Shown piece by piece: positions 20,230 through 37,262 of a DNA stretch of 39,051 bases. The stretch comes from a virus, in the IMG/VR virus record IMGVR_UViG_3300036717_000119, positions 1 to 39,051 of that record; one strand, 5' to 3'. The notes under the pieces are model-generated. The model was given only the letters and a program-made list of their open reading frames with translations, had not been told where the DNA came from and ran no database searches. How positions within the stretch are numbered: the stretch's first letter is position 1; each line of letters opens with the position of its first letter. Made by a program: the position numbers and the translations under genes.

Positions 20230-22668
20230 TCATGGGTGGAATGTCACCTGATTGGTTTTGGTCGAATCAATAGCTGCCACATAATTAACCCCCGAGACCG
20301 TGTTCGTTACCTGAAAACCCCATCCTGGCGGAACGTCAAACACCAGCGTGTCCTTGTTGGTAGCAATAATAGATGTTGCCCCTCCCGCAATGCTAACTTC
20401 ACCAATCGAAACGAATGCCCCACCAGCCGGCAGTTGCAGTTGCGCGTCCACCTCGGCGTTTCCAAGCGTGGTGGCGGGTGATGAAACTACCACCGGAATT
20501 TTCCAAGTCATGGTTTTAGTTCCCGTGTTTGTTTGAGTAAGTCCCGAAACAAAGTTTGTGAAGTAACTAACCGACTGGTTAGTCAGTCCAATCCCGTTTC
20601 CCGTGAACGTACCGCTTGCGGTCAACACCGTTGGAAATAACCCTGTTGGGATATAAGGAGTTTCTTGATGCAAAGGATCGCCCATGCCTGCGGCCAACAC
20701 GCCAAAATAGTCGCCATGCAAGCCGTCGTTGCCCATGTTGGTTAGCGCAAATGTAGCCGATCCATTGAAGTTTGAGCTGGCCCAGACGTTCCATTTGCCT
20801 GAATTTTGCGCGTTGATTGGATCACTCTCAGTGATGAAGTCCACGTCGCAATAATGGCTGACGTTGGGCATCATGTGATTGCGCAAAAGCGCGTTAAAGT
20901 TAGTGCGGTAGGTGTCGTTGCCATTGACCGTCTGGTTTGCCACAGTGAAGAAACCATCCGAACTGGTCGTGTATGGACTAAGGGTTTCGGCACACACTGG
21001 GACAGAAAATAGTCGGTAAAAGTTGGTAGCCACGTTGAGTAGCAACGACGGGGTGCCGGCGGTGAACTCATTAATTCCCAAGTCGGTCCAAATCACAGTC
21101 GCAAAATTGGTAAAAAACATCCGGTTCGTCGTGCCAGTGTAATTCACAAAACGATCGTATGGCTGAGACACGTTGCAAAAACCATAGTACGGCACAAACA
21201 ACCGTGCTATTCCGTTGACGAATGTAGGCATTGCGCCGCCGCTGGTTCCAATATAATTCACATCACCTACTCCCCAGTCGCGACTATCGCCCAGTATCAG
21301 GACTGATGCCTTGGTTGTGTTTCCAAGAATGGCTATCGGACCATACGAAAAGTTGCCCGTCCCCACACCGCCAGGAATTGTCGTATTCGTTGTTTGGTCT
21401 GATCCGGTTGCACCGAAAGAAGAGTATTCTAATGGACCAGTCCCGCTCGCAGATAGAATCACGCCCGCGCCGTTGGTGTAAAACGAACTAATATAAGCAA
21501 TGGCTCCCTGCGGTATCAATGGGCACGTCGTAACCAAACTTGCCGCCATCTGGCCATTGGGAATATTTGTGTACTGACCGCCGGCAAAAACTGCTTGGGA
21601 AACCCAATTGGAATAATGTATCGCACAAGATACAGTTGCAATCCCACCGGGGGCGGTTTCATTGTTTCCGTAAAAATTGGCATAATAAACTTGAAAATTT
21701 GTCATCGGACTTTCAGCAATAAACGGCTGCCAATCGTTTTCGACTTTATTCCCAGCAAATAAATTTTGTGGCACGTTGTCGTTTCCGGCAGCCACAAATC
21801 CCCAATAGGGGCGCACCGGTTGAATGCCCATCTGCGTTGGCGTGTTGTTCGTCGTCACCACGCTCCCCGGCAGGTTCGTCGGATTGACCGTCCCCACGAT
21901 GGCCGCGCCGGGCACATTCGTGATATTGGCCCCATTCAGTACCGGCGTCGACCCGTTCGTCACCACATTCACCGACTCGCTTAGATTTAATCCGCCGGCC
22001 CATGTCCCGACCACATTTCCGCCCGCGTCCCGCAGCGTCCGCGTGGTGGTGTTGATCGCCTGAAAGCCACCGATGAAATCGAAGCCTGTTAAGCCGTAAA
22101 CAGTCTCGCTGGCTGTCTGTGCCGTGCCATTCGTGGCCGTAAAATTGCCGCTCACCAGTAGCGTGTTGTTCACCGTCAGATTGTTGCTTAGGGTCACGGC
22201 GCTGGCGTTGTTGTTGGTAATGTAATAGCCCGGCAGTTGGGTGTTCAATGTTATGCTGCCGTCGCTGTTTGTAACAAAAACGAAATTCGTCCCCGCTATC
22301 AAGTTTGCCATGCCATTGGTGCCGAAATAAAACAGCGGTCCGGAAACAAGCAACGTCGTGACGTCGAGCACGTTCGTACTCGCCGGCACCGTGAACCGCA
22401 CCGGCTTTACCACGCCGGGCACCGTGAGTAGGTAGGTGTTCGGGTAGAGACCGACCACCGGGTTCGTCGTGCTGGCCGGAACAAGTGTATAGGTGCCAGC
22501 CCAAAGGTTTTGGCCGTCCGAAATCAGCGTGTTGGCCGCCGTCAAAGTCAGTTGCCGGTTATAAGCCGCCCCGCCAAAGAGCGTGTTGAGCGGGAATGAA
22601 ACCGAAGTTACCTGCGCGCAGGCCGACAACGTCAAACAGAGCAAAGCGAATGTGAATAATTTTTTCAT
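20230..22668 (-). CDS. Secreted or lipid-anchored tail-fibre-like protein with SGNH hydrolase domain (812 aa)
   Basis: The N-terminus MKKLFTFALLCLTLSACAQ is a signal peptide; LSAC (14-17) is a perfect lipobox, and ACA-Gln could also be a signal peptidase I site. Residues 20-280 are Thr/Asn/Val beta repeats with LNGANITNVPGAAIVGT, a common fibre motif. Residues about 450-665 form an SGNH/GDSL hydrolase: LILGDSRDWG with Ser462, DLGINEF with Asn533, and NDGLH with Asp648 and His651, plausible for an esterase removing acyl groups from surface glycans. A beta-rich tail follows. A virion fibre should not need export, so either it acts in the host envelope or the leader has another use. Confidence 0.75.
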   Translation of the reverse strand: MKKLFTFALLCLTLSACAQVTSVSFPLNTLFGGAAYNRQLTLTAANTLISDGQNLWAGTYTLVPASTTNPVVGLYPNTYLLTVPGVVKPVRFTVPASTNVLDVTTLLVSGPLFYFGTNGMANLIAGTNFVFVTNSDGSITLNTQLPGYYITNNNASAVTLSNNLTVNNTLLVSGNFTATNGTAQTASETVYGLTGFDFIGGFQAINTTTRTLRDAGGNVVGTWAGGLNLSESVNVVTNGSTPVLNGANITNVPGAAIVGTVNPTNLPGSVVTTNNTPTQMGIQPVRPYWGFVAAGNDNVPQNLFAGNKVENDWQPFIAESPMTNFQVYYANFYGNNETAPGGIATVSCAIHYSNWVSQAVFAGGQYTNIPNGQMAASLVTTCPLIPQGAIAYISSFYTNGAGVILSASGTGPLEYSSFGATGSDQTTNTTIPGGVGTGNFSYGPIAILGNTTKASVLILGDSRDWGVGDVNYIGTSGGAMPTFVNGIARLFVPYYGFCNVSQPYDRFVNYTGTTNRMFFTNFATVIWTDLGINEFTAGTPSLLLNVATNFYRLFSVPVCAETLSPYTTSSDGFFTVANQTVNGNDTYRTNFNALLRNHMMPNVSHYCDVDFITESDPINAQNSGKWNVWASSNFNGSATFALTNMGNDGLHGDYFGVLAAGMGDPLHQETPYIPTGLFPTVLTASGTFTGNGIGLTNQSVSYFTNFVSGLTQTNTGTKTMTWKIPVVVSSPATTLGNAEVDAQLQLPAGGAFVSIGEVSIAGGATSIIATNKDTLVFDVPPGWGFQVTNTVSGVNYVAAIDSTKTNQVTFHP

Positions 22669-22670
22669 GG

Positions 22671-23132
22671 TTAAAATGGGCTGGTCAAACTGACCAAGCC
22701 GCCGACAAAATTGTATTCAAAAGACGGTGCCGTGCCAAGCCAGTCAGCGAGATTCAGTCCCTCCAGCGCGCAGTTGAGCAGGTACAGCGTGGTGTTCGTT
22801 GTCGTGCCAACAAGCTTGATTTGCAAATTTCCGGTCGTTGGGAAGCTGGTCGGCTGCTGCAAAGCGAAACTGAAGGCTCCCTCGGGATCTGGGAATGCTA
22901 CCGATGAGAAGTCCACGCCACGACGAACGCGGAGCGAGAGTGAGTTCTGCCAGTTCTGGTTGTCAAAAAACGCCTTCGCCGCCGACCCGAAACCTGATTC
23001 GGTTTGAATTATTCGCGAGTGATTAAATTTGATGTCCATCTCGGTCAGAGACCGAGTGGTATTGCAAAGCGTCAGGACGCCGGCACCGCTCCACGAGGCG
23101 GTGCCGTCGGGCGCATATAGCAGCGTGAGCAT
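22671..23132 (-). CDS. Hypothetical tail-region protein (153 aa)
   Basis: A beta-rich protein (MLTLLYAPDGTASWSGAGVLTLCNTT ... FVGGLVSLTSPF) without recognised motif. It contains SRIIQTESGFGSAAKAFFDNQNWQNSLSLRVRRGVDF, which looks like part of a phage tail structural fold, and lies 2 nt upstream of the SGNH fibre gene. No signal peptide, unlike both its neighbours. A distal-tail or tube-linked role is possible from position only. Confidence 0.6.
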   Translation of the reverse strand: MLTLLYAPDGTASWSGAGVLTLCNTTRSLTEMDIKFNHSRIIQTESGFGSAAKAFFDNQNWQNSLSLRVRRGVDFSSVAFPDPEGAFSFALQQPTSFPTTGNLQIKLVGTTTNTTLYLLNCALEGLNLADWLGTAPSFEYNFVGGLVSLTSPF

Positions 23133-23141
23133 TCAAAGTGC

Positions 23142-23594
23142 CTAATTGAAAATTACGCCGTTGGTGAACGGGCAAGCCCCGGTCGGAGGTCCGTTGCTGA
23201 ACATTCCCCAGGGGGTCGTTGACCCGGAAATGGTTGTTTGCGGAAATGTGTAAATCCAGGTCGACCCATTAACCCAACCATTCGATGCCGGAAAATTGGT
23301 CAGGAACGGCGAAGCCACATAAAGATTTGTCGTGCCGTTCAACTGGAAGGCATACGCAACCCAAATGCTTTCATTCGTGTTAATGTTCGTCACCATGATG
23401 CTGTGCTGCTGCAAAAACTGCGAAACAGGATTGGTGATCGTCACGAACGAGGACTGGATCGGCGCATAAATATTGTTGGATATTGATGTCATCTGGAACA
23501 CGATCTGCGCGCCAGCTTTCGGTGTGAGCACCAGCGCGCAGGCCGCCGCCACTATCCCGATTTTGTTTTTAAGTTTTTTGATCAGTTTTTTCAT
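23142..23594 (-). CDS. Secreted protein with signal peptide, just after the tail tube gene (150 aa)
   Basis: MKKLIKKLKNKIGIVAAACALVLTPKAGA-Gln is a strong Sec leader: basic start, hydrophobic core and an AGA site at about residue 29. The mature part is Asn/Thr/Phe-rich beta sequence with FPASNGWVNGSTWIYTFPQ and no cysteines apart from one near the end. I do not recognise it. Its leader TTAACCATCCAACAAAAATA has no Shine-Dalgarno site. It lies inside the structural cluster where export is not expected. Composition resembles the mature part of the 174-residue protein following the capsid gene. Confidence 0.65.
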   Translation of the reverse strand: MKKLIKKLKNKIGIVAAACALVLTPKAGAQIVFQMTSISNNIYAPIQSSFVTITNPVSQFLQQHSIMVTNINTNESIWVAYAFQLNGTTNLYVASPFLTNFPASNGWVNGSTWIYTFPQTTISGSTTPWGMFSNGPPTGACPFTNGVIFN

Positions 23595-23614
23595 GGTGTA
23601 TTTTTGTTGGATGG

Positions 23615-24577
23615 TTAAGCAATTGGGTTTGCCCAGTAATCGCCACGGACGCCAGCGGTCAGGCTCGGCAGAGCTTCCCAGGCAACCTCGCCCTCGCGCA
23701 GTTGCTCGACGCCATTTTGCAGCTTGGACTTCACCAACTGGCCGATTGGAAAATTGAGATAGACTTTGCCGTCCGCGCCTGTGACGGAAACGGAAAATCC
23801 CTTTGCAAAACCACTGGCACCGCGCACCGCGCCGGCACCTTGGATCTGCAATTGAGTGTCGATCATGGTTCGGGTCACGCCGATGGGAATCCCGCGCAAC
23901 ATTCCGCCCACGGATTTGATTCGCCGATTGAAAAGGCCGACCGCCGCCACGTTGTCGTCCACAAATTCAACCTTCGGCTCGAAAGTCAATCCGTCGTAAA
24001 AATCCAAGCTCGCAAAGCCGGAAACGCTGCCCCAGGTGAGCTGATAATCTTGAGTGATTATCGACTGATTGGTAAACGTGGCGTCAACGAACGTCCCGCC
24101 CGAGTTGGCGAATGTCCGCAGCGATCCGGCCGTGGACCACGCATTGACCGCTCCGGCCGTCGTGCCCCGCAGGCAGAGCAGCTTCATTTGCCCCACCAAA
24201 GTTTTCATCGGATGAAACATCATTTGAGGCATGTCAACCACGGCTACCGCGGCATGCGTGTCCAACGAGCTGTCAATTCCGTGGACCGAGGCCGGCACGT
24301 CAGTTGTCGGAAAGATGCCAGCGCCCAGAACTGGGTTAGCGTATGGCCACAGCACGGCCGCGATCGCCGTCGTCATGCGTCCGTCTGGCGTGATGCTGAT
24401 TTCGTCATATGCCTCTTTGTCCCGGTTGTCGACCTTGCCGATGCCGGCCACTCCAACTGGCTCCTGACTGTAAACAAGGTCGGTGTCAATGGTGGTGCCA
24501 TCCTTGGAATAGACGCTGATCCCGTTGAAGGATAAGCGCCCCGGGATTCGGTTTAGAGAAGATCGTTGAAGGCTCAT
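23615..24577 (-). CDS. Tail tube protein candidate (320 aa)
   Basis: Position, between the tail completion genes and the tape measure, and length fit the major tail tube protein. The sequence has repeated beta segments (RLSFNGISVYSKDGTTIDTDLVYSQEPVGVAGIG, DYQLTWGSVSGFASLDFYDGLTFEPKVEFVDDN) and no catalytic motif. VDNRDKEAYDEISITPDGRM fits a tube domain that forms hexameric rings. I cannot confirm the family from motifs alone; a sheath or spike protein is less likely because no contractile-tail genes are seen. Confidence 0.55.
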   Translation of the reverse strand: MSLQRSSLNRIPGRLSFNGISVYSKDGTTIDTDLVYSQEPVGVAGIGKVDNRDKEAYDEISITPDGRMTTAIAAVLWPYANPVLGAGIFPTTDVPASVHGIDSSLDTHAAVAVVDMPQMMFHPMKTLVGQMKLLCLRGTTAGAVNAWSTAGSLRTFANSGGTFVDATFTNQSIITQDYQLTWGSVSGFASLDFYDGLTFEPKVEFVDDNVAAVGLFNRRIKSVGGMLRGIPIGVTRTMIDTQLQIQGAGAVRGASGFAKGFSVSVTGADGKVYLNFPIGQLVKSKLQNGVEQLREGEVAWEALPSLTAGVRGDYWANPIA

Positions 24578-24580
24578 AAA

Positions 24581-25354
24581 TTAGTTCCAAAAGTTTGCGG
24601 CGGCGGTATCGCTGCCGGATTGGTTGCGGGTGAATGCTCGCGCACGAAACAGGCACGGCTGAGTGATATTGACTGGTGCACCAGTGTAAAGCGTCGCCTG
24701 TGCGTTGCCCTCGCGCGGATGCGATCCGTCCACCGTATACCACACGGAATCAGCAGTGGCTTTCACAAGAACGGTCGCCGTCCCGGTAAGCTGGTAGGAA
24801 TTCGGCGTGATCGCGGCCACAACCGAACCGCTAACGACGATCTGGGGTCTCGCCACACGCAGGAAAGGCCGAAAATCAGCTTCGGACGCCGTAAATTTGA
24901 GTTGCCCGACCCGAAGGTTTGTGTCTCGATCCGGTGTGAATTCATAAATGGTTGGCTGGCTTGGCACCAGACTTTGAGTCAATCCGACCGGCGTGTAAAG
25001 CTTCAACAGCTTTTCGGCAAGCGCGGTCCACACGCGGCACGGAAGCATTGTCCCGCGGGGCCCCCTGTTTAGGGTCACGTTCTCGACAAACTGAACCAGA
25101 ATTGTCAGCTTGAGCGGTCCCCCGGGCATGTTGGCGTTTTCGTCGCTCGCCTCCTCGATTGGTAGCACAAGGAAGCCGATGCCCATGAGACCGTCAAGGC
25201 CTGGCCCGATGGCCATCTGAACTTTGCGATTCAGCGCATCCTCGATGTCTCCCGGCTCGACGGCCACACCTACCCGCGCGCCGATGATGGCGTCCGCGAG
25301 TAGGCACCCGAGAATGTCCTGCTGAATCAGCGGCCAAAGGTCTTGATAGTCCAC
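24581..25354 (-). CDS. Tail terminator-like protein with C-terminal chitobiase-type domain (257 aa)
   Basis: The start is GTG at 25354, not the upstream 25396, because AAGGGGGGTG lies just before it and GTG overlaps the TAG stop of the previous gene by one base. The N-terminal 170 residues (DYQDLWPLIQQDILGCLLADAIIG...) are in the usual place of a tail completion or terminator protein. The C-terminal 85 residues (VWYTVDGSHPREGNAQATLYTGAPVNIT...LFRARAF) match the CHB_HEX_C/Fn3-like beta-sandwich found at the ends of chitobiases and cell-surface proteins, possibly a surface-exposed, carbohydrate-contacting decoration. Confidence 0.6.
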   Translation of the reverse strand: MDYQDLWPLIQQDILGCLLADAIIGARVGVAVEPGDIEDALNRKVQMAIGPGLDGLMGIGFLVLPIEEASDENANMPGGPLKLTILVQFVENVTLNRGPRGTMLPCRVWTALAEKLLKLYTPVGLTQSLVPSQPTIYEFTPDRDTNLRVGQLKFTASEADFRPFLRVARPQIVVSGSVVAAITPNSYQLTGTATVLVKATADSVWYTVDGSHPREGNAQATLYTGAPVNITQPCLFRARAFTRNQSGSDTAAANFWN

Positions 25355-26022
25355 TATGCACCCCCCTTGATCTTGCGTAGTTGAAGATTCACCCAATCGG
25401 TCGCGCCGGCATTAACCGATTCGGACCATTCCTGCTCGCTGGGAAGGATGGATCGGTCTTGGGGCACCGTCACAGACTCGGCAAACCAGTACATTATCAA
25501 GCCGGGGCGGAAATATTCTGAACCCTTTTCGCCTTTCGACGTTTTGCGCGTGCGCGTGGTGGTGACCGCCTCAGCCAGTCCGCCAACCCTGCCCTTGCCT
25601 TTCCAGAACAGCACAAGGTTGCCGAACTCACGCGCCCGCATTCCGTACGACTCAGCCCGAGCCGGTATGGCAAGGTATTTGACGCCCGCCGTCTTTGTTC
25701 CAGGGAAAATTGTGATGTCACCAAACGCCCGCATCAAACCCGGCATGGTCGGGCCGCCCAAAGTAACAGTTGCTGAATTGGCCTGAACTTGAAGGCAGTC
25801 ACCGGGATTGATCTTTTGCGCGATCCGACCCCAATAGTTCGTCCGGCGGCCGCCCAGCTTATTGGGGTGCCCGATGCCCCATTGCATGACGTGCAGTGAG
25901 GTGTCGTGAATCAATCGCCGCCCCATGGCACCGACGAGGGGCCCCTTGTTGCGCAGCATCGCGATGGTCTGCCGCAGGGCCGGCGCCGCCGTATCCGACA
26001 CGATGGAAATCGTCATGTTCAC
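25354..26022 (-). CDS. Phage virion morphogenesis (Mu gpG-like) tail completion protein
   Basis: Family members join the finished tail to the head. The 222-residue protein has ALRQTIAMLRNKGPLVGAMGRRLIHDT early, HPNKLGGRRTNYWGRIAQ, then beta segments QANSATVTLGGP and FGDITIFPGTKTAGVKYLAIPARAESYGMRAREFG. The 'G...R.....NYW..A' element is typical of the virion-morphogenesis family (Pfam phage_tail_S/gpG-like) in Mu-like clusters. It is coupled to the upstream gene by a 4-nt overlap. Confidence 0.7.
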   Translation of the reverse strand: MNMTISIVSDTAAPALRQTIAMLRNKGPLVGAMGRRLIHDTSLHVMQWGIGHPNKLGGRRTNYWGRIAQKINPGDCLQVQANSATVTLGGPTMPGLMRAFGDITIFPGTKTAGVKYLAIPARAESYGMRAREFGNLVLFWKGKGRVGGLAEAVTTTRTRKTSKGEKGSEYFRPGLIMYWFAESVTVPQDRSILPSEQEWSESVNAGATDWVNLQLRKIKGGA

Positions 26023-26954
26023 GGGGTCACCTCCACCTTCACGCGAAATTTTAGGTCGCCCGATTCCAGGGATTCCTTTAGCGTCTTGAGTATGTCGGTG
26101 TCAAACCGGTCCTCGCCGACCTTAACCTTGTCGGCTCCAAATTCAGTTTCATCTGCCTCGACGCCGTCAGGATCTCCGCCAATAGCCTCAAAATCGGCAG
26201 CGGAAACTGGAATTCGAACCATGCCCGAGTTGAAAGCGAACGGCTCGAAATCGTTTCCCAGCGTGTCGCCGTGGTCGCCGGCACCGTCGCCCAACGCCTG
26301 CCAGACATCGCTGTCCTTGCGCGCTACCATGCGCCCAGACGATTCAAATATCGCTGATGCCTCATCATCGTCCGCCTCGTCGAGAGCCGCCGCCCAGCGG
26401 CCTTCCTTGCCGTCCCATGCGTCCTCGGGCACTTCCTCTTCACCTTTCTTGGTCTCCTTTGTTCCACGTGGAACTTCAACAGCAAATCCTCGGACAAGCT
26501 CCCAGGCGGGGTATTCCTCCAATTCAGCAGCTTCATTGCCCCAAATGTTCTTGGCCGCGCCCTTCGTCATTTTATCTTGCGTGTCCAAAATTAAATCAAG
26601 CCTTTGCGTGCTGAACAGGTCTTGCAACGTGCCAGCCTCGGCAGGCGGCACTTCTGGGCCGCCTGGGAATCCCGTCGCCGGGTCGTATCCAAGCATTTGA
26701 CCAACCGCCTTTAGCTTCAATCGGGCGTCCGCGACCGTGTCGGAGGTTTGATCATCCATGCCGGACAGAATTGCCGTAATAGCGTTGCGCACGCCCTGAA
26801 CCGCCGCGGCATTAGTCATGCGAGCGCTGAAGAGCGATTGACGGAGGATGTTTGAACCCAACTTGCGCAGCTCATCGGTCCCGAGCGAGGTCGGAAGATC
26901 CTCGCGGGCGTCGGCGACTTGTTGGGCGAGCGAAAGCATTTCAGGTATGACCAA
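26019..26954 (-). CDS. Head- or neck-region protein (311 aa)
   Basis: The first 110 residues are helical (LGTDELRKLGSNILRQSLFSARMTNAAAVQGVRNAITAIL) and the C-terminal 200 very acidic (EEEVPEDAWDGKEGRW, DEADDDEAS, GDPDGVEADETEFG). I do not recognise a family. Order (between connector-like and tail completion genes) suggests a head-to-tail joining or scaffolding role. It overlaps both neighbours (14 nt upstream, 4 nt downstream), so translation is coupled. Confidence 0.6.
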   Translation of the reverse strand: MVIPEMLSLAQQVADAREDLPTSLGTDELRKLGSNILRQSLFSARMTNAAAVQGVRNAITAILSGMDDQTSDTVADARLKLKAVGQMLGYDPATGFPGGPEVPPAEAGTLQDLFSTQRLDLILDTQDKMTKGAAKNIWGNEAAELEEYPAWELVRGFAVEVPRGTKETKKGEEEVPEDAWDGKEGRWAAALDEADDDEASAIFESSGRMVARKDSDVWQALGDGAGDHGDTLGNDFEPFAFNSGMVRIPVSAADFEAIGGDPDGVEADETEFGADKVKVGEDRFDTDILKTLKESLESGDLKFRVKVEVTP

Positions 26955-27381: not shown

Positions 27382-27392
27382 ATTTTTTTTGC

Positions 27393-27424: not shown

Positions 27425-27445
27425 AGTATTAACCCACACTGAACG

Positions 27446-27970
27446 TTACGGCGTCACCAGCCAGTCGATTTGCAAATTGAACCCGCCGTAATTGCCCGGG
27501 TTGTTGGTTCCGACAACGGTGAACGAGTACTTGTAAACACCGTACCCATCGCCCTGGGCCTGATTGATGTTCGTGGATGATCCGACGTAGGTATTCGACG
27601 CCGTGATATTGTTATTCCAAGTCAGCAACGGGTTGTAGGTCAATGCGAAATTGGTGCCCGCCGCCGGGTTGGTGTAATTGTTGTTCGGACCCACGACGCC
27701 GTAAAGGTTGAAGAAAACCTGATTGGTGCCGATGCCGTTAGTAGTGCCGCCATATGGCGAGTATTCAGACAGCAGAAAGTTTCCGTTGTGCCAGCCGGTG
27801 GGGTTCAGCTGGTTCGTCAGAAACCCGGTGTACGTCACGTTGTTCGTCACAAAGCCGTTGAAGGCCGTGTAAACGCGCGGCACAACATAAGTTTGCGCTT
27901 GCGCCGGAGCGGCCATGAAGAGCGCAGCCAAAAGCCCGAGGCTGACCGTGAATTTTTTGAGCATGTTCAT
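27446..27970 (-). CDS. Secreted protein with signal peptide, just after the capsid gene (174 aa)
   Basis: MNMLKKFTVSLGLLAALFMAAPAQA-Gln is a clear Sec leader with AQA cleavage near residue 25. The mature part is Asn/Thr/Tyr/Gly-rich beta sequence (YTAFNGFVTNNVTYTGFLTNQ, YNPLLTWNNNITASNTYVG, GGFNLQIDWLVTP) with no cysteine. It resembles a small surface or pilus-like domain more than a capsid protein. It lies between the major capsid gene and a strong terminator, so it should be expressed with the capsid at high level. Function unknown. Confidence 0.65.
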   Translation of the reverse strand: MNMLKKFTVSLGLLAALFMAAPAQAQTYVVPRVYTAFNGFVTNNVTYTGFLTNQLNPTGWHNGNFLLSEYSPYGGTTNGIGTNQVFFNLYGVVGPNNNYTNPAAGTNFALTYNPLLTWNNNITASNTYVGSSTNINQAQGDGYGVYKYSFTVVGTNNPGNYGGFNLQIDWLVTP

Positions 27971-27998
27971 ATTTTTTTCGTGTTAATGCTGAGTGGTA

Positions 27999-29021
27999 TC
28001 AGCTGATGGCCACAAGCTGTATGCCGGTCGTGTGTTGGGTGTGGAGATACTCGAAGTTTTCCACCGTGAGGACGATTTTTTTGACGCCCAGTTCGGTGAC
28101 GTAAACCGCATATTCGCCGCCGCCGCCGGCGCCGTTCGTGACGTGCCGGACAAGGTTGGAAGCGTCCATCGGGGTTACGTCCTTGATGCCGGTGAAAATC
28201 AGGACGTTCTGGCCAATCAATTCCTGCTTGGCCGTCGCCGTGTTCTGGTAGCGTTCCATGTTGATCAGCGTGGAGGAAACGCCCAAGGCGGTCGCGAGCT
28301 GCTCCTCGTTGTACACGGAGGCCCGGGCCAGAGATCCGGCCGTAAGCTGGCTCTCGTAACTGGTCGCCCGCTTGAGGAACGCCGCGTCACCATACGCCAC
28401 GTTTTGCGCATAGAAGCCGGTGGTGTTCGCCGTGTTCAGGATGATGTTGCGGATGTCCAAATCAGGATTTGCCGCGCTGTCCCAGGTCTTTCCGGAGTTG
28501 ATTGCCGCCGCCGTGTAAATCGCAATGGCTTCCTGAACCGTGGCCCGGTTCAAGAGGTCGATCAACCACTTGGTGTGGATCTGCTGCCATTCGGGCTTGT
28601 CCTTGAGTTCGTCCCGGTCAAGCACCACGGACAAGCCGCGGTTGTTGATCTGGAAATCGCTCTTGGACGCAACGCGCTGACGAACCTCGGCGAAGTCGGC
28701 GAGGATTCCGCGTTTCACCTTGTTGTAATCAACGGTTTCCCATGGCTCGTTTTCGTTGTACGTCATCAGCCGGACGATGCGCGAGTTGCTGGGGCGGGGC
28801 GGGGCGAGATAATCGCGCAGACGGGACAGCCCGTTGCCCACCATGGAATCGTAGCTGGCGGCAAAGAGTGTCAGCTCCTCGATTTGCTCGACGGAGCGGA
28901 GGAGGGAATCATTGGACAGGCAGACGGTCCCGGAGGCCATGCTGCCAATGTCGTTGGAGAGCACCACGCCCGCGCTTTGGAGGGCGGCCTGGCGGGCGTT
29001 GGAAAGGGCAATTTGTTTCAT
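27999..29021 (-). CDS. Major capsid protein (340 aa)
   Basis: It follows protease, scaffold and decoration genes and precedes connectors, the normal place of the major capsid gene, and the 340-residue size fits an HK97-fold protein. Helical N-terminal part (RSVEQIEELTLFAASYDSM), then DYNKVKRGILADFAEVRQRV with charged beta segments resembling an E-loop region, spine-helix-like KWLIDLLNRATVQEAIAIYTAAAI, and a C-terminal beta domain. Three L-S-N motifs at 6-8, 21-23 and 35-37 may be processing sites. The start is preceded by an AATAAATACCGATT leader without a Shine-Dalgarno site. A 376-codon antisense ORF is a composition shadow. Confidence 0.7.
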   Translation of the reverse strand: MKQIALSNARQAALQSAGVVLSNDIGSMASGTVCLSNDSLLRSVEQIEELTLFAASYDSMVGNGLSRLRDYLAPPRPSNSRIVRLMTYNENEPWETVDYNKVKRGILADFAEVRQRVASKSDFQINNRGLSVVLDRDELKDKPEWQQIHTKWLIDLLNRATVQEAIAIYTAAAINSGKTWDSAANPDLDIRNIILNTANTTGFYAQNVAYGDAAFLKRATSYESQLTAGSLARASVYNEEQLATALGVSSTLINMERYQNTATAKQELIGQNVLIFTGIKDVTPMDASNLVRHVTNGAGGGGEYAVYVTELGVKKIVLTVENFEYLHTQHTTGIQLVAIS

Positions 29022-29033: not shown

Positions 29034-29603
29034 TTAGACCGGGTTGGTGGGATAGGTCAGGGTGCCGTTAGTGTTCACCAACTGGTAGGGGTCCACCGGC
29101 ACATAAGGCACTTCCATCGTTGAATTCGTTGCGGCGATGGTTGCGGCCGCGCGACCGACGACCCAGTAAGTGCCGTTGGCGACACCGGCTTGACTGATGT
29201 CTTGCACGCATCCGAGCGGGGCGGAGACCAACAGCTTGTCGATGGTGACAGCGGTGCCGGCGGCAGCGATGCCCATTTCAAGTCCGGGCCGAGCACCGAG
29301 CCGGCGAACTGCCATCACGTCGCCGATAGCGTATGGAGCGTCAGGGCTGGGTCCGAGAGGGAACGGGCCGCCCGCACCACCGTTGCATATATCGCCGTAT
29401 TGGTAGCCAGAGGCACCGCGCTTGATCAGCAAATAACGATTCGAGAAAGGCAGTGAGGTTGAGGCCGGGTCAACAAAAAGCGACTCAATGCCGTGCTCGT
29501 TGAACACGCCCAATGCATTGGCAAGGGCGATCTTTTTAGGGCGGTCGAATAAAGCGCGAAGCGTGCAAAGCATGAGCGCCAGTTTAATTTTCAGTTGTTT
29601 CAT
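29034..29603 (-). CDS. Head decoration protein, DUF2190-like (189 aa)
   Basis: It lies 12 nt upstream of the major capsid gene, where decoration proteins usually sit. The N-terminal 30 residues are basic and hydrophobic (MKQLKIKLALMLCTLRALFDRPKKIALAN). The body has repeated beta segments with Gly turns (FPLGPSPDAPYAIGDVMAVRRLG, GCVQDISQAGVANGTYWVVGRAAAT), like DUF2190-type capsid stabilising proteins. L-A-N at 27-29 could be a cleavage point that removes the odd N-terminus. The leader ACCAACCATCAACCAAACCA has no Shine-Dalgarno site. Confidence 0.55.
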   Translation of the reverse strand: MKQLKIKLALMLCTLRALFDRPKKIALANALGVFNEHGIESLFVDPASTSLPFSNRYLLIKRGASGYQYGDICNGGAGGPFPLGPSPDAPYAIGDVMAVRRLGARPGLEMGIAAAGTAVTIDKLLVSAPLGCVQDISQAGVANGTYWVVGRAAATIAATNSTMEVPYVPVDPYQLVNTNGTLTYPTNPV

Positions 29604-29636
29604 TGGTTTGGTTGATGGTTGGTTTTGTTGTGGCGC

Positions 29637-29873: not shown

Positions 29874-29874
29874 A

Positions 29875-30453: not shown

Positions 30454-30490
30454 AAGTGTTTTTCTAATAGTTTGGTGATTTTGTCAATGA

Positions 30491-30841
30491 TTAGTTTTTG
30501 AATCGCGCAGCCCGGCCCATGTGATAATTGGCGGCCGCTTTGTGGAACTCGGCGGCGTCGGTATCGCCCGCCTTGTCGTGAGCAGCCGCCGCTTTCATGT
30601 GGGCCTGGGCGGCTGCATGATGGCTCGCCTTGTCATTCGCGTCGGCGGATTTCAGATGCGCCTGACGGCTCGCCTCATTCTCCTTGCCGTGCGCTTCGCC
30701 TCCGGCATATTGGTTTCCGTGAAATTCGTGACCGACGTAATCGCCATTTTGCAGCGCGGCCATGATTTCTTTTTCGCCTGCGTCGTTGGCAAGGGTAACT
30801 CCCTTGCCGATCAGCAGGCCGATTATTTGTTCTTGTAACAT
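30491..30841 (-). other. Possible internal start producing a scaffold-like protein from the protease gene
   Basis: An in-frame ATG at 30841 (codon 282 of the protease) follows AATAAACCAACCAAACACT, the same A/C-rich leader seen before independently started genes here. The product (116 aa) would begin MLQEQIIGLLIGKGVTLAND, matching the start of the scaffold gene. Nested scaffold starts within protease genes are known, for example lambda C/Nu3. Confidence 0.5.
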
Positions 30842-31684
30842 AGTGTTTGGTTGGTTTATTGGTGGAGCGGTAATTGGAGCGGGCAAATGTTGATTCGCGA
30901 GACTTTCCACTCCTGAAATATTCGGAAACTGCGTGAGCGCGACAGACAGCAGCTTGAACGGTCGCGCGCGGATCGCGTCCCCGTCGTTGCCAATGGGCTG
31001 AACCAGCCAGAACGCGGACGGCAATTTCCAGCCGGCAGCAACTGCGTCTGCCCCGTCATTATCAAGTGAGAAATGCGCTTCGATGCCGCGAGCTGTCTTG
31101 CGAATCTGATCCACCACGCCCAGCTTTATTTTCTTCGTCTCATTGCCCAACGCCTTGGGGTCGTGATCGTTCAAATCACCATGACCCTTAAAAATCGGGA
31201 TTCCGACAAACGCACGCTTGAGCTTTCGGAAAAATGAATTCTCGCCGTCCAACAGGGCGTCGGCGGATTGGTTGTCGAGCACCTGAATGAACTTCTGAGT
31301 TTTCAGCTGGCCATTCTCGCGATACAAGCGCGTCTTGGGATGGTCGCCAAACGGAGCGATCAAAGCCCATCCCTCATTATCCAGGGGCCCGGGCGCATCA
31401 TTGGCCAGCACCGGCTCGTCATCGCAACAGGCCGCCATGGCATCGTGGCCGCACGCAATGCCTTCATGCATCGCGGCGTTGCCTGGCTTGCCGTCTTCGG
31501 TCGCGCGTTTCGCCGCCACGCGATGAAGCTTGGCTGCCCGCGTATGCAAAACACTGTCCGCCTTGGCATGCGCTTCACCGCTGGCACTGTGCGCCGAACT
31601 GGCCGCGTCGGAAAGTTCCGCGCTAAAATTGCCGGCTTCCCCGCGCGTCTGGTCGGGGTCAAATGCGTTGGCTAATGGGATCAT
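30491..31684 (-). CDS. Mu gpI-like prohead protease with extra N- and C-terminal modules (397 aa)
   Basis: The central part (about 96-264) resembles Mu-type phage proteases: GWALIAPFGDHPKTRLYRENGQLKTQKFIQVLDN, FFRKLKRAFVGIPIFKGHGDL, IRKTARGIEAHFSLDNDGADAVAAGW, LPSAFWLVQP. The first 90 residues are an Ala/His/Ser-rich helical module. Residues 282-397 are a second module that starts like the scaffold protein and then has GDYVGHEFHGNQYAGGEAHG, a known phage head motif, and Ala/His helices. L-A-N motifs flank the protease core (93-95 and 262-264). It starts in ATGA overlap with the portal gene. Confidence 0.75.
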   Translation of the reverse strand: MIPLANAFDPDQTRGEAGNFSAELSDAASSAHSASGEAHAKADSVLHTRAAKLHRVAAKRATEDGKPGNAAMHEGIACGHDAMAACCDDEPVLANDAPGPLDNEGWALIAPFGDHPKTRLYRENGQLKTQKFIQVLDNQSADALLDGENSFFRKLKRAFVGIPIFKGHGDLNDHDPKALGNETKKIKLGVVDQIRKTARGIEAHFSLDNDGADAVAAGWKLPSAFWLVQPIGNDGDAIRARPFKLLSVALTQFPNISGVESLANQHLPAPITAPPINQPNTMLQEQIIGLLIGKGVTLANDAGEKEIMAALQNGDYVGHEFHGNQYAGGEAHGKENEASRQAHLKSADANDKASHHAAAQAHMKAAAAHDKAGDTDAAEFHKAAANYHMGRAARFKN

Positions 31685-33678
31685 GATTTTTTAGCGAGTG
31701 CTTTCGCCAGCTTTTGGGTTGTGAAATCGTTCAAAACTTTTGCCGCTTTCGGATACGCATTGATGTCGCCAAGCAGTTCAATCAGTGGACCGCGTTCAGC
31801 TACAAACTCTTTGAGTTTTTTCACCATGAGCGAATCATCCTTGATTTTTTCGATGGATTGCAAGGCATTTCGCACCGGGTCAAGATCGTCGGCGCGCGCA
31901 GCAGCCAATTGATTGGCCGGTTTCATTACTTCATTTTCCAGAGCGATCTTGCGGGTTTTTGAGGTCACCACACGCCGCAATGTTTGCGCGGCGCGCGTGT
32001 TGCCGAGGCCCAGCGAGTCCAACTCGACCAGCTTGGAATTCGGGATCGAGTAGCCCAACGCGGGCGATTGCAACCCGGCCTGACTCCATAGCCCGGCGTC
32101 ATCAACCTCGGGCGTGCCCATGCGCTTTGGAATTGGCATTTGACGCGAGGCCGCCTGCGAATAATAGGGAGCGCCCGGCTTGGCAAGGTCGGGATTGCGT
32201 TTCGGATCAGCTCCAGCTCCAATGGTGGCGTCTTGCGATTGCATTGCCGGCTGCGTTTCTTCTTTCGGCAACCCCCCATTAATGAGCGGGTCCGTCTCCT
32301 CACCGGTGGCATCGCTGGCGACAGGCGGCTTCGGTGGTGCCGCAGGTTTCGGCTTGGCCGCAGGTTTGGGTTGCCCGGGCTTGGCTGGCGCGTCCTCGTC
32401 ATCCTCTTGCGGAGGTCCTCCGGCACCCATTGGCGGGGCGGGCGGTTGCAAGCACGGCTCGCCGGCCTGGGGCACCGACCAGCGGAAACGCTTGTAAACT
32501 TCCTTCATCATCACCTTGAATCCCATTGGGACCAGCCCCTGCAGCGCCAGCAAATCATCGGGCGACGTGTCGGCAAGCGGCGGCATCAGGACGAACCACG
32601 CGCGCGGCTCCTGGTTGAACAGGTAACGGATAACTGGCCGGTCAATACGTTCGTTAAAAACTCCAGTGCACCATTTGGCGTCGCGGATCAGCAGAATGCC
32701 CGACTCCTCCTTTTGCACGCTCGCGCCAACGGCACCCTTGCCGCCGCCGCCAGATTGGCCGCCTTGACCGGCCTGAGAAGAGCGCGAACCGGTGGCGAGA
32801 TCCACGCCGCGGTAGCACTTGGCGTAAAGCCCATTGATGAACTCAATCATCGGATGGAACGGGGTCTGGTTGCGTGATTCCTGTTCGAGGAATTTCAGCT
32901 CCACCCCTTTGTTGTGCAGCGATGCACCGTCATTGGCCAAAGTTTGCAAGGCGGTCATTGCCTGCGTCCATTCAGGCGATCCCTCTTGCGCATCCGTTAT
33001 CGCTTCCAAAAATCCGCTGCCGTATCGCGTGTTGAACAGCATCCAGTCGCGCAACGAAAACATTTTCATAGCGTACGCAATTCCAAGCGAACGCATCCAA
33101 CCGATGTTAACCGCAGTCAACCATTCGCCTTGGACACACGGTATTCCGTACATGTCAAAGATGTGGGGCATGTAGCCGAGATAACCGCGCCGGCATTCAA
33201 AAAACCAGAGCGGCGTGTGCCGGAATTCGGCGGTGACTTCGCGGGCGCTGGCATTGTCCACGCGCAGCAGCATTTCATGAATGCTGAATTTGTAATCAAC
33301 GGCCGAGAAAACCTGATAGATCAATTCATCTGTGCCGCCGGTCGTGTCTTGTTCTAGCGCCTCGGTCGCCTGAACATTCTCGTAAAAATATTGGAGCGCC
33401 GCCGCGTGTTCGTCGCCGTCCGATGAGCCGTCCGAAACGATTTGCCATTCCATTCCGGTAGCATCGGATTTTCGTTTGTCGGAATTGACGGCCAGTTCGC
33501 CATCACGTTCCATCATCACTTCCCAGGTCTTGCCGATCTGTCGGAAATCACCAATCCGAAAGGCATTCATTTGCCGCGACAATTCATCCATGTCGAGCGA
33601 CGGCATGGGGGAATATTTGAGGCGGATGGCCCATTCGATGCGGGCCTGGTTAAATTGCGATGCGCCGGTTTGATTCAT
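31681..33678 (-). CDS. Portal protein, Mu gp29/DUF935-like (665 aa)
   Basis: Portals form the 12-subunit DNA channel at one capsid vertex. The DUF935 pattern is visible: ALQYFYENVQ, SAVDYKFSIHEML, HTPLWFFECRRGYLGY, MKMFSLRDWMLFNTRYG, LQTLANDGASLHNKGVELKFLEQ, GSRSSQAGQGGQ, FNERIDRPVIRYLFN. A Pro/Ala/Lys-rich linker (about 410-460) is followed by a C-terminal helical domain of about 200 residues, longer than usual for this family. The start overlaps the large terminase stop by 4 nt and the stop overlaps the protease start by 4 nt. Confidence 0.88.
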   Translation of the reverse strand: MNQTGASQFNQARIEWAIRLKYSPMPSLDMDELSRQMNAFRIGDFRQIGKTWEVMMERDGELAVNSDKRKSDATGMEWQIVSDGSSDGDEHAAALQYFYENVQATEALEQDTTGGTDELIYQVFSAVDYKFSIHEMLLRVDNASAREVTAEFRHTPLWFFECRRGYLGYMPHIFDMYGIPCVQGEWLTAVNIGWMRSLGIAYAMKMFSLRDWMLFNTRYGSGFLEAITDAQEGSPEWTQAMTALQTLANDGASLHNKGVELKFLEQESRNQTPFHPMIEFINGLYAKCYRGVDLATGSRSSQAGQGGQSGGGGKGAVGASVQKEESGILLIRDAKWCTGVFNERIDRPVIRYLFNQEPRAWFVLMPPLADTSPDDLLALQGLVPMGFKVMMKEVYKRFRWSVPQAGEPCLQPPAPPMGAGGPPQEDDEDAPAKPGQPKPAAKPKPAAPPKPPVASDATGEETDPLINGGLPKEETQPAMQSQDATIGAGADPKRNPDLAKPGAPYYSQAASRQMPIPKRMGTPEVDDAGLWSQAGLQSPALGYSIPNSKLVELDSLGLGNTRAAQTLRRVVTSKTRKIALENEVMKPANQLAAARADDLDPVRNALQSIEKIKDDSLMVKKLKEFVAERGPLIELLGDINAYPKAAKVLNDFTTQKLAKALAKKS

Positions 33679-35168
33679 GTCAGTGAGCCCACTTTAAGCC
33701 TACCCATGCCAAGATTTCCAGCATTATGTTGGATCGTCAGCCCGGTTACGCGACTGGACGACACCGGCAAGCTGCCGTGTTCTGCCGCGCGAACCGCCAG
33801 CGCCAAAGCCCAAAAATGATCAGCATGACCGCTCTCAGTGCGCGTGGCCGCAATGCTGGTTCGGCCACCGGGTGTCGTGATTCGCTCTGGCTTGCGCAAA
33901 TCCTCGATCGCGTCAGAGTCGAGCAAGACCTCGATCGTCAAAGAGCGGTCCTCGAAAACTTTCAGCAACGCCGTGGCCATGTTTTCGGTCACCCTCGCCG
34001 TTTCCTGCTTGCGCCCTTCGGAACGTATGAAGTCGTTGATCGGCTCAGTGCAGGCGAAGTTCACGCCAGCAATCCTCGCCCGTCCCCAAGATTGCGCCTG
34101 CGAAAACTCGACTAGACCCAACCCAAGCCCGGTCATGTCGATGCAACCGCCGCGAAACTTTGGCATTCGGCAAATGAGTTCAAGCTGATTCTGTTGGTCG
34201 GGCAAACGCATCCCGGCCATGCGCAACACGCCCAACACGCGGCGGGATTGTCCCTGCCTCTCAAGGACGATGATCACGGACAAATCGCGGTTACGACCAA
34301 CGTCCTGGCCAAGGAACAAGTCGCCCTCCGCGCGGAACAATCGCGCTATGGTCACCGCCGACCAAGATTGATCGTTCATCGGGATTCCATCACGCAACGC
34401 CTGCTGGATAAGTTCGTTGGTTAGCAAGCACATGTTTTCGTCGTTGAACTTGCACTCGTAGTTCTGGTCGTAGGCGCGTTTGTCCAGGGCCCGGGAGCGG
34501 GCGACGTCGGGGGTGATCTCTTCGCGAGTGTTGGGGTCGTACACAGGGACCCCCATCTCGTATGCGCACTGCCGAGTCACGCGGCTTAGTCTGAATCCTG
34601 CCGGCGTTGTGAACACCTCGCCATTCTGCGGGCCGGCACCCGAGGTCATGCGGTGGAACATGTTGTATTTTCCGTTGCCGGTCGATGCGATGCGGCAAAG
34701 ATAATCGCGATTGCTCGACAGGATTGGTTCGGCCGCTTCCCAGATTGCGCTGCTGTTTTCGTGGAAGGCGAATTCATCGAGGATTAGATCGCCGGAGAAG
34801 CCGCGGGCGGTGCGGGGATTGGCCGCCAGCACCTTGATGCGTCCGATTTTTCCACCGACTTTTATGCGCACCTCGAACCGCATGTTTTCGTAGGTTGCAT
34901 CCGGTGAATCGTCCATCGTCTCGAACACGGCGCCAAGCTCTGTGCAGATGGCTCCGGCCCGCGCGGCAAACTCACCACCATTGTCGCGTGAGTTACTCAG
35001 CACGGTGACAAGCCGGCCCGGGCGAGTCAATAGCCGGTCCACTGCCCAGGCTGCCAGCACAAAGCTCTTCCCGATCTGTCGCGACCAGTGAATAATGAGG
35101 ATGCCGGTTGCGTTGTCGCGGAAGATCGCCAATTGATACGGACGGAACGTTAGTTGCCCCTTCAGCAC
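33675..35168 (-). CDS. Terminase large subunit, Mu gp28-like (497 aa)
   Basis: It is the ATPase and nuclease that packages DNA. The N-terminal ATPase has an adenine-contacting FRPYQLAIFRD, a Walker A variant HWSRQIGKS (27-35) and Walker B GDLILDEFAFHE (126-137). The C-terminal nuclease has Asp290 in FLGQDVGRNRDLSVIIV and a second acidic site in CIDMTGLGLGLVE; GHADHFWALALAVRA closes the fold. Sequence order fits the Mu gp28 class, so packaging may be headful. ATG at 35168 overlaps the small terminase gene by 7 nt. Confidence 0.92.
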   Translation of the reverse strand: MLKGQLTFRPYQLAIFRDNATGILIIHWSRQIGKSFVLAAWAVDRLLTRPGRLVTVLSNSRDNGGEFAARAGAICTELGAVFETMDDSPDATYENMRFEVRIKVGGKIGRIKVLAANPRTARGFSGDLILDEFAFHENSSAIWEAAEPILSSNRDYLCRIASTGNGKYNMFHRMTSGAGPQNGEVFTTPAGFRLSRVTRQCAYEMGVPVYDPNTREEITPDVARSRALDKRAYDQNYECKFNDENMCLLTNELIQQALRDGIPMNDQSWSAVTIARLFRAEGDLFLGQDVGRNRDLSVIIVLERQGQSRRVLGVLRMAGMRLPDQQNQLELICRMPKFRGGCIDMTGLGLGLVEFSQAQSWGRARIAGVNFACTEPINDFIRSEGRKQETARVTENMATALLKVFEDRSLTIEVLLDSDAIEDLRKPERITTPGGRTSIAATRTESGHADHFWALALAVRAAEHGSLPVSSSRVTGLTIQHNAGNLGMGRLKVGSLT

Positions 35169-35731
35169 ACCGCCTCCTCGCCAAACAGTTTGATTCGCGC
35201 CTGCTTGATCTTTTGTTCTTCCGTCAGGTTTGAATCGGCTTTGATGGACCGCAACGATTCGATTTGAGAAAGTGCCAGTTCGGCGGCGCGAAACTCGAAC
35301 TTATCGCGATCCAGTTTTAGATTTTGCGCTGCCAGATCCTGCTTTATTATTGCGACCCCCAAATCAAAATCACCAGTCTGCTCCGCTCGCCGGTATCCCT
35401 TGGACAATACCGCCTCGCGAGCCTGGTCGAGGCTCCATGTTGGATTATCTTCAATCGCACGCTTGAGCTCTTCGCGTTGCAGTTCGGCTTCCTCTCGATA
35501 CCTCAATTCATGTTGCCACCACGACCGGAATTTGGAGATGGTGCTGTCGTGTTTGATGTCAATATCGAGCCGCTTCAGAATTTCGGCGCGCACATCGAAC
35601 AGAGTTTTTTCCGGGCTCAAAAATAAGTCCATCCAGAAAGCGCGCTCCTCGTCGGTCATTGCCACCCACGCTTTTTTCAAATCGCCGATGGGCCCTGGAA
35701 TTGCCTTTCTCGAAAGCTGGGTGGAAATCAT
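35162..35731 (-). CDS. Terminase small subunit, Mu gp27/DUF3486-like (189 aa)
   Basis: This is the DNA-recognition partner of the large terminase. It is helical and charged, with IPGPIGDLKKAWVAMTDEERAFW, an HTH-like EILKRLDIDIKHDSTISKFRSWWQ segment (about 50-72), and a long C-terminal coiled coil, in the style of DUF3486. It lies directly upstream of the large subunit. The start overlaps the lipase stop by 4 nt. Confidence 0.75.
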   Translation of the reverse strand: MISTQLSRKAIPGPIGDLKKAWVAMTDEERAFWMDLFLSPEKTLFDVRAEILKRLDIDIKHDSTISKFRSWWQHELRYREEAELQREELKRAIEDNPTWSLDQAREAVLSKGYRRAEQTGDFDLGVAIIKQDLAAQNLKLDRDKFEFRAAELALSQIESLRSIKADSNLTEEQKIKQARIKLFGEEAVC

Positions 35732-36525
35732 AAAATCTGGACCGGATTGTTGATGCCATCCAGGGCGTTGATGTAATTTCCAACGTGATGATCAACGATT
35801 GGATCAAGCGCGGCGGTAAAATGCGACGTGGTCCATTTGCGCCAGATGCCCCAGGCATCAGATGCGAGCATGCGAATCAGCGGCGGATTGAACCAGAGAT
35901 CATCAATTGATTTGGTCGGTTGCAGGCTGGAGATAAAAACTTCGTTTCCGCCGTGCCAGTAGAGATCCCGAAATGATGGAATATGCGGAAACCTCGGAAC
36001 GATGTCCTCCTCAAATACCATGCGCCAGGTGCGATCTTTAAGCGCGGAGTCGTACCAATCCGCGAATGCTTTATTGCCGACGCGGGGTTGGCCAAACGTG
36101 TAAACCTGCGCGATGCTGAAACCGTTCCGGTGCAACTCCATTGCGGCGAGCACGGCCAGGGCACCGCCAAGCGAATGGCCTGTGACAAATATTGGCTTTG
36201 CGTGAATCGCGTTCGAGCAACCGCCCAGGGCCTCACATATGGCGATCAGCACAGAGTTTAGAGCCGCCTCAAAGCCGCGATGAACACGCACGTTTAGTCC
36301 GCCGGCCGACATGAGCAAGCGCCGCTCAAAGTCGGCATCGGTCAGCCAGTTGCGGATTGAGTGGGTGCCGCGAAACGCGATCACGGTTGAGTCCGGCAAC
36401 TGCTGGATTGTCAAATGCGTGTCGGTCGCTATCTCGCTAATGTCCGCCGCGGCGTATGCGCCGGCACTCGCTTTGCAGCAGTACCGGGCATTTTCAAGAT
36501 CGAAAAATTTGGCTTGGATGTTCAT
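35728..36525 (-). CDS. Class 3 lipase (alpha/beta hydrolase, 265 aa)
   Basis: It hydrolyses ester bonds, probably of glycerolipids or phospholipids. The class 3 lipase plan is complete: oxyanion loop VIAFRGTHSIRNWLTD (48-63), nucleophile Ser118 in FVTGHSLGGALA, YTFGQPRVGN (142-151), acid Asp174 in EEDIVPRFP, and His246 or His247 in VDHHVGNYINAL. ATG at 36525 is preferred over an upstream in-frame start because it makes a 4-nt overlap with the zinc-ribbon gene. There is no signal peptide. It is the gene just before the terminase, an unusual place for such an enzyme; a role in host lysis is the main suggestion. Confidence 0.88.
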   Translation of the reverse strand: MNIQAKFFDLENARYCCKASAGAYAAADISEIATDTHLTIQQLPDSTVIAFRGTHSIRNWLTDADFERRLLMSAGGLNVRVHRGFEAALNSVLIAICEALGGCSNAIHAKPIFVTGHSLGGALAVLAAMELHRNGFSIAQVYTFGQPRVGNKAFADWYDSALKDRTWRMVFEEDIVPRFPHIPSFRDLYWHGGNEVFISSLQPTKSIDDLWFNPPLIRMLASDAWGIWRKWTTSHFTAALDPIVDHHVGNYINALDGINNPVQIL

Positions 36526-36716
36526 GTGGTTCGAGTCGTGAATTTTGGACAATCGAAAATCAGCACAGAGGTCTTGCGGCGGGCGTTCGTCTTGTACGGG
36601 CCGCCAACGCAGCCCGCTTCCTCCAATCGTTTGCACCGATCGCAAACTGGCGATCCCTTTTTCACCTCCAACGCCAGCCGGCCGCAATCACAGTGCATGA
36701 TCTTGGCGGTCTTCAT
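36522..36716 (-). CDS. Small zinc-ribbon protein (64 aa)
   Basis: Cys9-x-Cys11 and Cys25-x-x-Cys28 (HCDCGR ... VCDRCKR) form a likely zinc site, followed by a basic, unstructured C-terminus (KTNARRKTS). It lies 3 nt after the outer membrane protein gene and overlaps the lipase start. A role in nucleic-acid binding or as a late regulator is possible; no family is recognised. Confidence 0.65.
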   Translation of the reverse strand: MKTAKIMHCDCGRLALEVKKGSPVCDRCKRLEEAGCVGGPYKTNARRKTSVLIFDCPKFTTRTT

Positions 36717-36719
36717 CGG

Positions 36720-37262
36720 TCAGAATGTGAAGCCCATGCCTCCGCGAACTGCCGGGGTGCCGTCGAATGTCACGCCCTTTTCCCATGGAATCGAAAGCGA
36801 GGCGGTTGCGTAGGTGATCCGCGTCATGAATTTTGTGATCTTCAGTTCCGGCTCGACCTTGAGCCGCAACGTGGTGGTGCCGGGAATCTTCTGCCCGCCG
36901 ACCAACGCGTTTAATTCCATCTTGAAATCGTATTTCTGGATGATCGCAAAACCAATACCGCCTTCGCCGGCATTGAGCGCGGACCCGACGCCAAAAAAGT
37001 CGCCCTCGGCCGTAATATTCCACCGGCTGAAATTGTATTGGGCGCGCAGGTAGTCGCTGGCCCCCTGGCCGGTTGTCTGGTTGTAGCCGTCCTCAAATTG
37101 CAGTGTGGCCGTCCAGTTGAAATTCGTGTTGAAGCCGGTGCCCCAATCCGCCGCCTGGTTGAAAAAATTCAGCTCGACCGGCGCGTTCGTTTGACCGCGT
37201 GCTGAAAAGGCGAACATAGTTGCGATTATGGCGTATGCCGCGATGATGAGTAGTTTTTTCAT
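36720..37262 (-). CDS. Outer membrane beta-barrel-like protein (180 aa)
   Basis: MKKLLIIAAYAIIATMFAFSARG-Gln is a signal peptide. The mature part of about 157 residues is a series of amphipathic strands (FNTNFNWTATLQFEDGY, YLRAQYNFSRWNITAEGDFF, YDFKMELNALVG, TTLRLKVEPELKITKF, ITYATASLSIPW) and ends RGGMGFTF. The terminal aromatic Phe is the beta-signal recognised by the outer-membrane assembly machinery. Size fits an 8-stranded barrel such as OmpX or lambda Lom. ATG 37262 is used; an upstream TTG would spoil the leader. First gene of the late unit. Possible roles: superinfection exclusion or envelope change before lysis. Confidence 0.7.
   Translation of the reverse strand: MKKLLIIAAYAIIATMFAFSARGQTNAPVELNFFNQAADWGTGFNTNFNWTATLQFEDGYNQTTGQGASDYLRAQYNFSRWNITAEGDFFGVGSALNAGEGGIGFAIIQKYDFKMELNALVGGQKIPGTTTLRLKVEPELKITKFMTRITYATASLSIPWEKGVTFDGTPAVRGGMGFTF

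Follow-up and report, generated by a model that had tools for sequence, protein, structure and literature searches.

Four proteins encoded in the virion gene block of an uncultured virus carry Sec signal peptides, and to judge from sequence their export is very probably real and selected. The virus is IMG/VR record IMGVR_UViG_3300036717_000119, and the stretch analysed (positions 1 to 39,051, here called the window, 39,051 bases) encodes TerL and a Mu-type portal. The original prediction had placed Sec signal peptides at the genes at 20230, 23142, 27446 and 36720. All four were found there, and of the 48 window genes obtained with a codon-usage gene caller exactly these four score. The exported products differ in kind, with one outer-membrane protein, two small beta-rich proteins and one enzyme of fibre-like build. 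Our tentative preference is for a reading in which fibre-type modules, rerouted through Sec, remodel the host surface late in infection. The four genes and their signal peptides are as follows (L numbers denote related loci, nearly all of them metagenomic).

20230..22668, minus strand: SP_SGNH, a fibre-like protein of 812 residues (phrog_8480, E 1.2e-23; alignments)
22615-22668, minus strand: SP_SGNH signal peptide with the lipobox LSAC (signal-peptide call, sequence)
23142..23594, minus strand: SP_150, an uncharged beta-type protein of ~121 residues directly after the tube gene (signal-peptide call, L044 orthologue)
23508-23594, minus strand: SP_150 signal peptide (signal-peptide call)
27446..27970, minus strand: SP_174, an Asn/Thr-rich beta protein of ~149 residues directly after the capsid gene (signal-peptide call, family alignments, slot)
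27896-27970, minus strand: SP_174 signal peptide (signal-peptide call)
36720..37262, minus strand: predicted exported outer-membrane beta-barrel protein, 180 residues (signal-peptide call, AlphaFold, Foldseek, VIA, orthologues)
37194-37262, minus strand: barrel-protein signal peptide (signal-peptide call)

The product of 20230-22668 begins with MKKLFTFALLCLTLSACA up to the predicted cleavage point and continues with QVTS. The corresponding sequences are MKKLIKKLKNKIGIVAAACALVLTPKAGA and QIVF for 23142-23594, MNMLKKFTVSLGLLAALFMAAPAQA and QTYV for 27446-27970, and MKKLLIIAAYAIIATMFAFSARG and QTNA for 36720-37262, the last read from an ATG start with an alternative TTG 15 bases upstream. All four leaders show the features of signal peptidase I substrates, with a positive n-region, a hydrophobic core and small residues at -3 and -1. 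They have few charges past the core and are predicted to be cut between A-x-A or A-x-G and Q. Signal peptides were judged by a rule-based score made for this analysis. On an E. coli K-12 stretch none of 38 cytosolic genes and 5 of 8 exported ones were called; the score is therefore specific, although some lipoproteins escape it. When N-termini were permuted with their composition kept, 37 to 487 of 5,000 trials passed (~1-10%), so that a single call may be due to chance and conservation of the slot matters more. The possibility that the four leaders are chance hydrophobic N-termini is excluded by conservation of the slot across relatives. The Gln behind each cleavage point, to which the original prediction drew attention, is indeed present in all four, but it is not special: 9 of 29 signal-type N-termini in a Pedosphaera metagenome-assembled genome (MAG) have Gln in this position. 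A special meaning of this residue was dropped, since it matches the host's own style. The lipobox LSAC is likewise present in the 20230 product but is not conserved among relatives, being limited to the window phage and one near-identical phage, and Pfam LPAM_1 scores 11.2 bits on this protein, below the cut-off of 20 bits. A lipoprotein theme common to the four was dropped because the orthologues do not keep the lipobox, and no small conserved lipoprotein of the Llp or Cor kind is found among the four exported proteins.

The slots are defined by the following neighbouring genes.

27999..29021, minus strand: major capsid protein (relatives ~30% identical match phrog_1005, major head protein; alignment)
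23615..24577, minus strand: probable tail tube gene (gene order)
18355..19737, minus strand: tape-measure-type protein (gene order; relatives exist)

The claim that two of the exported genes lie directly after the capsid and tail tube genes stands for the capsid, whose identity is supported by the ~30% identical relatives that match the PHROG major head protein. The tail tube, like the tape measure, is named by gene order only, and the 23615..24577 product has no PHROG match. Relatives of the capsid gene were found at 24 genome loci, nearly all in records titled Verrucomicrobiota, including a Limisphaerales MAG, Akkermansia, strain LW23 and a Brevifollis strain. Several of these loci sit within contigs of 50-150 kb, and some family members are therefore probably prophages. 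The window capsid had no tblastn match among 50,697 GenBank phages.

Twenty related phage or prophage loci were picked because a small gene separates their capsid gene from the following head gene. All 20 of these post-capsid genes encode a signal peptide, recognised automatically in 18 and by eye in two (L008, with a downstream start, and L056, with an Arg close to the cleavage site). Among the other genes of these loci, 29 of 350 received a call (Fisher P = 4e-16, which is only a guide, the loci being related and not randomly drawn). All but one of these 29 calls (28) fall in recurring places: 11 in the pre-tape-measure slot, 2 in the post-tube slot, 7 on the lipase/terminase side and 8 just upstream of the capsid gene, the last with a different leader type (g189, described below). 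The pre-tape-measure slot holds signal-peptide proteins in L004, L005, L008, L028, L029, L033 and L054. At least one locus outside the set of 20, L060, has a cytosolic-type protein in the post-capsid place. Members of the post-capsid family are 15-53% identical to SP_174, and within their N-terminal region conservation is highest at the cleavage region and at a V-x-P-R type motif behind it. The gene is absent in L054, despite a capsid 79% identical, and in Akkermansia and Spartobacteria prophages; its distribution marks it as accessory yet positionally fixed. Leader types vary between members while the export signal persists, as would be expected under selection for export itself.

The AlphaFold model of the 36720 product contains eight consecutive strands past the signal peptide, with a predicted local distance difference test (pLDDT) value of ~80 over the barrel. 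The top Foldseek ranks include NspA, OprF and Ail, and comparison with OprF by VIA gave Z 16.7 and 2.5 A over 126 residues. Orthologues in L003, L004, L008 and L054 keep both the signal peptide and the C-terminal Phe. The protein thus combines an eight-stranded barrel behind a signal peptide with a C-terminal aromatic residue, as expected of the Lom/Ail/OmpX group, and from the model we assign it with good confidence as an envelope protein. It was not filed as Lom or Ail because five family members gave no Pfam match at E up to 1. PHROG and PDB profile searches with the family gave nothing, and close relatives in IMG/VR were limited to the near-identical phage. Lambda Lom and the Ail/OmpX-fold barrels resemble it in having a signal peptide and a predicted 8-stranded barrel and in being encoded by phages beside late genes. 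The window protein differs in lacking a Pfam match and in lying by a lipase and the terminase, whereas the lambda Lom gene sits after the tail tip gene.

SP_SGNH is built of a conserved N-domain of ~105 residues (about residues 19-125) and a variable remainder. The N-domain is common to L004, L005, L028, L029, L033, L054 and L069. The remainder holds an SGNH esterase at about residues 283-665 with intact motif residues (GDS at 460, DGLH at 648), and the L005 counterpart has Melibiase_2 and Melibiase_C domains (alpha-galactosidase-like) in place of SGNH. Most virion proteins of the window and L002 are 95-100% identical, and their SP_SGNH proteins are identical over residues 1-160, 97% identical over 161-200 and ~25% identical beyond. 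The alignment indicates domain exchange after about residue 199, as in tail fibres. A conserved N-terminal domain with an exchangeable C-terminal part is the arrangement expected of a fibre, and several relatives contain fibre-type repeats. Modular tail fibres are similar in the exchange between near-identical phages and in these repeats; they differ in that the window protein has a signal peptide and its gene precedes the tape measure instead of following the tail tip. The N-domain (10 members) gave no PHROG match, no Pfam match and no meaningful PDB match. Its profile found nothing in 387 Verrucomicrobiota genomes, a draw that held no known positive, although the query works on four records having the domain. 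Close relatives of the SGNH protein in IMG/VR were limited to the near-identical phage. The SGNH region also occurs in proteins of the phages vB_Sb_QDWS (Shewanella), Lo5R7ANS (Mesorhizobium) and TripleJ (Arthrobacter). These are homologous at 26-33% identity over ~340-385 residues and differ in having neither the signal peptide nor the window N-domain; the Shewanella record and one TripleJ record annotate them as minor tail protein. The records OP650936.1 (Hujiaoplasma phage zrk29-1) and OK094664.1 (Shewanella phage vB_Sb_QDWS) have an equal length of 47,902 and equal match statistics, and the host label of one of them is probably wrong.

SP_174 and SP_150, both phage-specific, contain hardly any charged residues and have a high content of Asn, Thr, Ser and Gln. 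The predicted structure of SP_174 is a beta-sandwich of low confidence (pLDDT 63). A named fold was dropped, as only generic jelly-roll matches were obtained with this low-confidence model and Z values of 8-10 mean little here. PBSX XepA illustrates this: it is an exported prophage beta-sandwich protein that VIA aligns with the SP_174 model at Z 8.8 (3.0 A over 107 residues), but many unrelated jelly-roll proteins score equally and no homology is claimed. The SP_174 profile also matched PDB chains of coronavirus spike S1 (best E 0.002), which was judged an artefact of Asn/Thr-rich composition. Profile searches of Pfam, PHROG and PDB gave no usable identity for the family, and SP_174 had no tblastn match among the same 50,697 GenBank phages. 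The gene adjoins the capsid gene, the position expected of a head-decoration or head-fibre protein. Only L058 gave fibre or virion family matches in this slot. Its post-capsid protein with a signal peptide has a fibre-type repeat; it matches PHROG virion structural proteins (E 6.6e-5) and, below the Pfam cut-off, the tail-fibre domain Gp53-like_C (E 0.012). L058 also has nearly the same leader (MKxKLLLTLA...) on four neighbouring virion-type genes (9042-9374, 9436-9933, 11088-11846 and 15204-15704). SP_150 has an orthologue with a signal peptide in L044 and is cut in L002 by an in-frame 270-base deletion. In L028 (11065-11778) an SP_150-type protein is fused in frame behind a small cytosolic-type protein, which makes the signal-type segment internal; the small protein is free-standing in L029, L031 and L033.

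A further leader type is found upstream of the capsid gene.

29034..29603, minus strand: g189, with a hydrophobic leader followed by basic residues and a LAN motif; not counted as a Sec signal

Genes in this position frequently carry it: the leader is conserved in the window, L064, L033, L028, L066 and L068, and the LAN-type motif recurs in the N-termini of protease, scaffold-type and capsid proteins. The capsid protein, too, begins with a g189-type leader in two Akkermansia prophages, and a leader of this kind is seen on the capsid protein of L066 and L068. A weak match to a Mu-type head protease was seen among the window proteins. The g189 leader may be cut by the head protease, releasing a membrane-held protein. 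Mean charges before and after the core are +2.5/+0.9 in the post-capsid family and +2.6/+0.4 in the fibre slot, as against +1.7/+1.4 in g189.

On the surface-remodelling reading that we favour, the exported proteins would be accessory proteins in fixed slots of the virion gene block, produced late together with the virion genes, a timing suggested by gene position. They would leave the cytoplasm via Sec and act at the cell surface both before lysis and during it. The barrel would be placed in the outer membrane, the SGNH esterase would strip acyl groups off surface polysaccharide or lipopolysaccharide, and the small beta-rich proteins would coat or bind surface glycans or the receptor. Infected cells and debris could then become poor receptors; progeny would not be wasted and competitors would be excluded. 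Virion-appendage modules would have been rerouted to the envelope by gain of host-style signal peptides. We favour this reading because the signals, taken at face value, mean export, because the enzyme types target glycans or their acyl groups and because exclusion by exported proteins is established for phages (PMC9586334). T5 Llp is exported and blocks adsorption to infected cells and debris (PMC9586334), and T5 Llp, Cor and Rtp45 are envelope-exported superinfection-exclusion lipoproteins that stop adsorption (PMC9586334, PMC12685063). The 20230 product is like them in its predicted export and in its lipobox; it differs in its 812 residues with an esterase and in a lipobox that is not conserved, and homology is not claimed. 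The particle need not depend on an exported fibre, since a separate long adhesin-type gene without a signal peptide exists at 12973-15885. Several points weigh against surface remodelling. Two slots directly follow genes of the particle shell and one product is fibre-like, features that would be unusual if the proteins served the envelope alone. A soluble protein exported by Sec would still need another route across the outer membrane. Only the barrel and the protein with the lipobox, a motif that relatives do not keep, have an evident way of reaching the outer surface before lysis. The original prediction of a set of envelope proteins holds in that the exported set lies in the virion gene block and is conserved, but the set is not uniform. 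Among the roles it proposed, surface change or exclusion fits the predicted barrel, whereas lysis is without direct support.

In the main rival explanation the exported proteins would be virion appendages, serving as head fibres or head decorations, tube decorations and tail fibres; they would mature in the periplasm and join particles only once the inner membrane fails at lysis. In its favour, two of the genes immediately follow those for capsid and tube and a third precedes the tape measure, the N-domain is conserved while the C-terminal part is exchanged, the L058 protein has fibre-type and virion structural matches (the former weak), and the SGNH domain occurs in phage proteins without signal peptides, some of them annotated as minor tail protein. 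Signal peptides are also confined to outward-facing types as named by gene order, the portal, capsid, tube and tape measure being without. However, tailed phages are known to assemble in the cytoplasm, and literature searches, partial and word-matched, turned up no tailed phage described as having Sec signals on its fibre-type proteins. The particle can also do without these proteins, as L054 has lost the slot gene and L002 carries a truncated SP_150. We consider the appendage explanation possible, though on the unlikely side, and would hold in similar doubt the wider proposal that this phage family completes its particles outside the cytoplasm, with Sec-secreted appendages binding the virion when the cell opens and a host-facing coat being added after assembly. 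Another explanation takes the leaders as morphogenetic, not Sec, signals: they would guide their products to the prohead or to the inner membrane and then be cut off by the phage head protease. The g189 leader, its likeness on the capsid of the two Akkermansia prophages and the similar leader common to several L058 virion proteins argue for it, but the four leaders have positive N-ends, few charges past the core and A-x-A or A-x-G cleavage sites before Q, their core-flanking charges differ from those of g189, and the barrel must be exported; we regard it as improbable. The genes might also be unrelated host-derived cargo (morons) that came to lie in the late region by chance. Signal-type N-termini are abundant in host genomes (29 of 121 genes called in one MAG) and phages often carry outer-membrane protein genes, but the position is kept across deep divergence, and in 387 Verrucomicrobiota genomes the SP_174 profile found the known prophage and only one further, weak match (7.5e-4). 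We give this origin little credence.

Exported phage proteins are already known as cargo or exclusion genes. To our knowledge, no tailed-phage family is known with Sec-signalled fibre-type proteins in fixed slots beside capsid and tail genes. If these proteins act at the envelope, they show how fibre modules turn into surface-modifying enzymes; if they join the particle, they are an exception to a basic rule of tailed-phage assembly. The host phylum, Verrucomicrobiota, is one whose phages are little studied.

Other features of the window are listed below.

35728..36525, minus strand: class 3 lipase beside the barrel gene (Pfam Lipase_3, E 2.6e-34)
22671..23132, minus strand: g153, conserved tail-region protein without a signal peptide (53-67% identical in L028, L031 and L033)
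19741..20190, minus strand: small protein containing a single hydrophobic segment; its gene precedes the tape-measure-type gene (sequence)

The lipase neighbourhood is the same in L003, L004, L005, L055 and L058, and the enzyme, conserved in place, could take part in lysis. No endolysin or holin was recognised in the window. A tail-region protein (24581-25396) has a C-terminal Ig-like domain (Fn3_assoc / CHB_HEX_C), an early-region protein (6340-6567) consists mostly of GYGSGDG-type repeats, and the window edge (11-550) encodes a protein of the pentapeptide-repeat type. In L072, L074, L075 and L076 (Verrucomicrobiota MAGs), capsid-type and g189-type genes lie next to aldo-keto reductase or sugar-kinase-like genes; these loci could be prophage remnants or domesticated shells.

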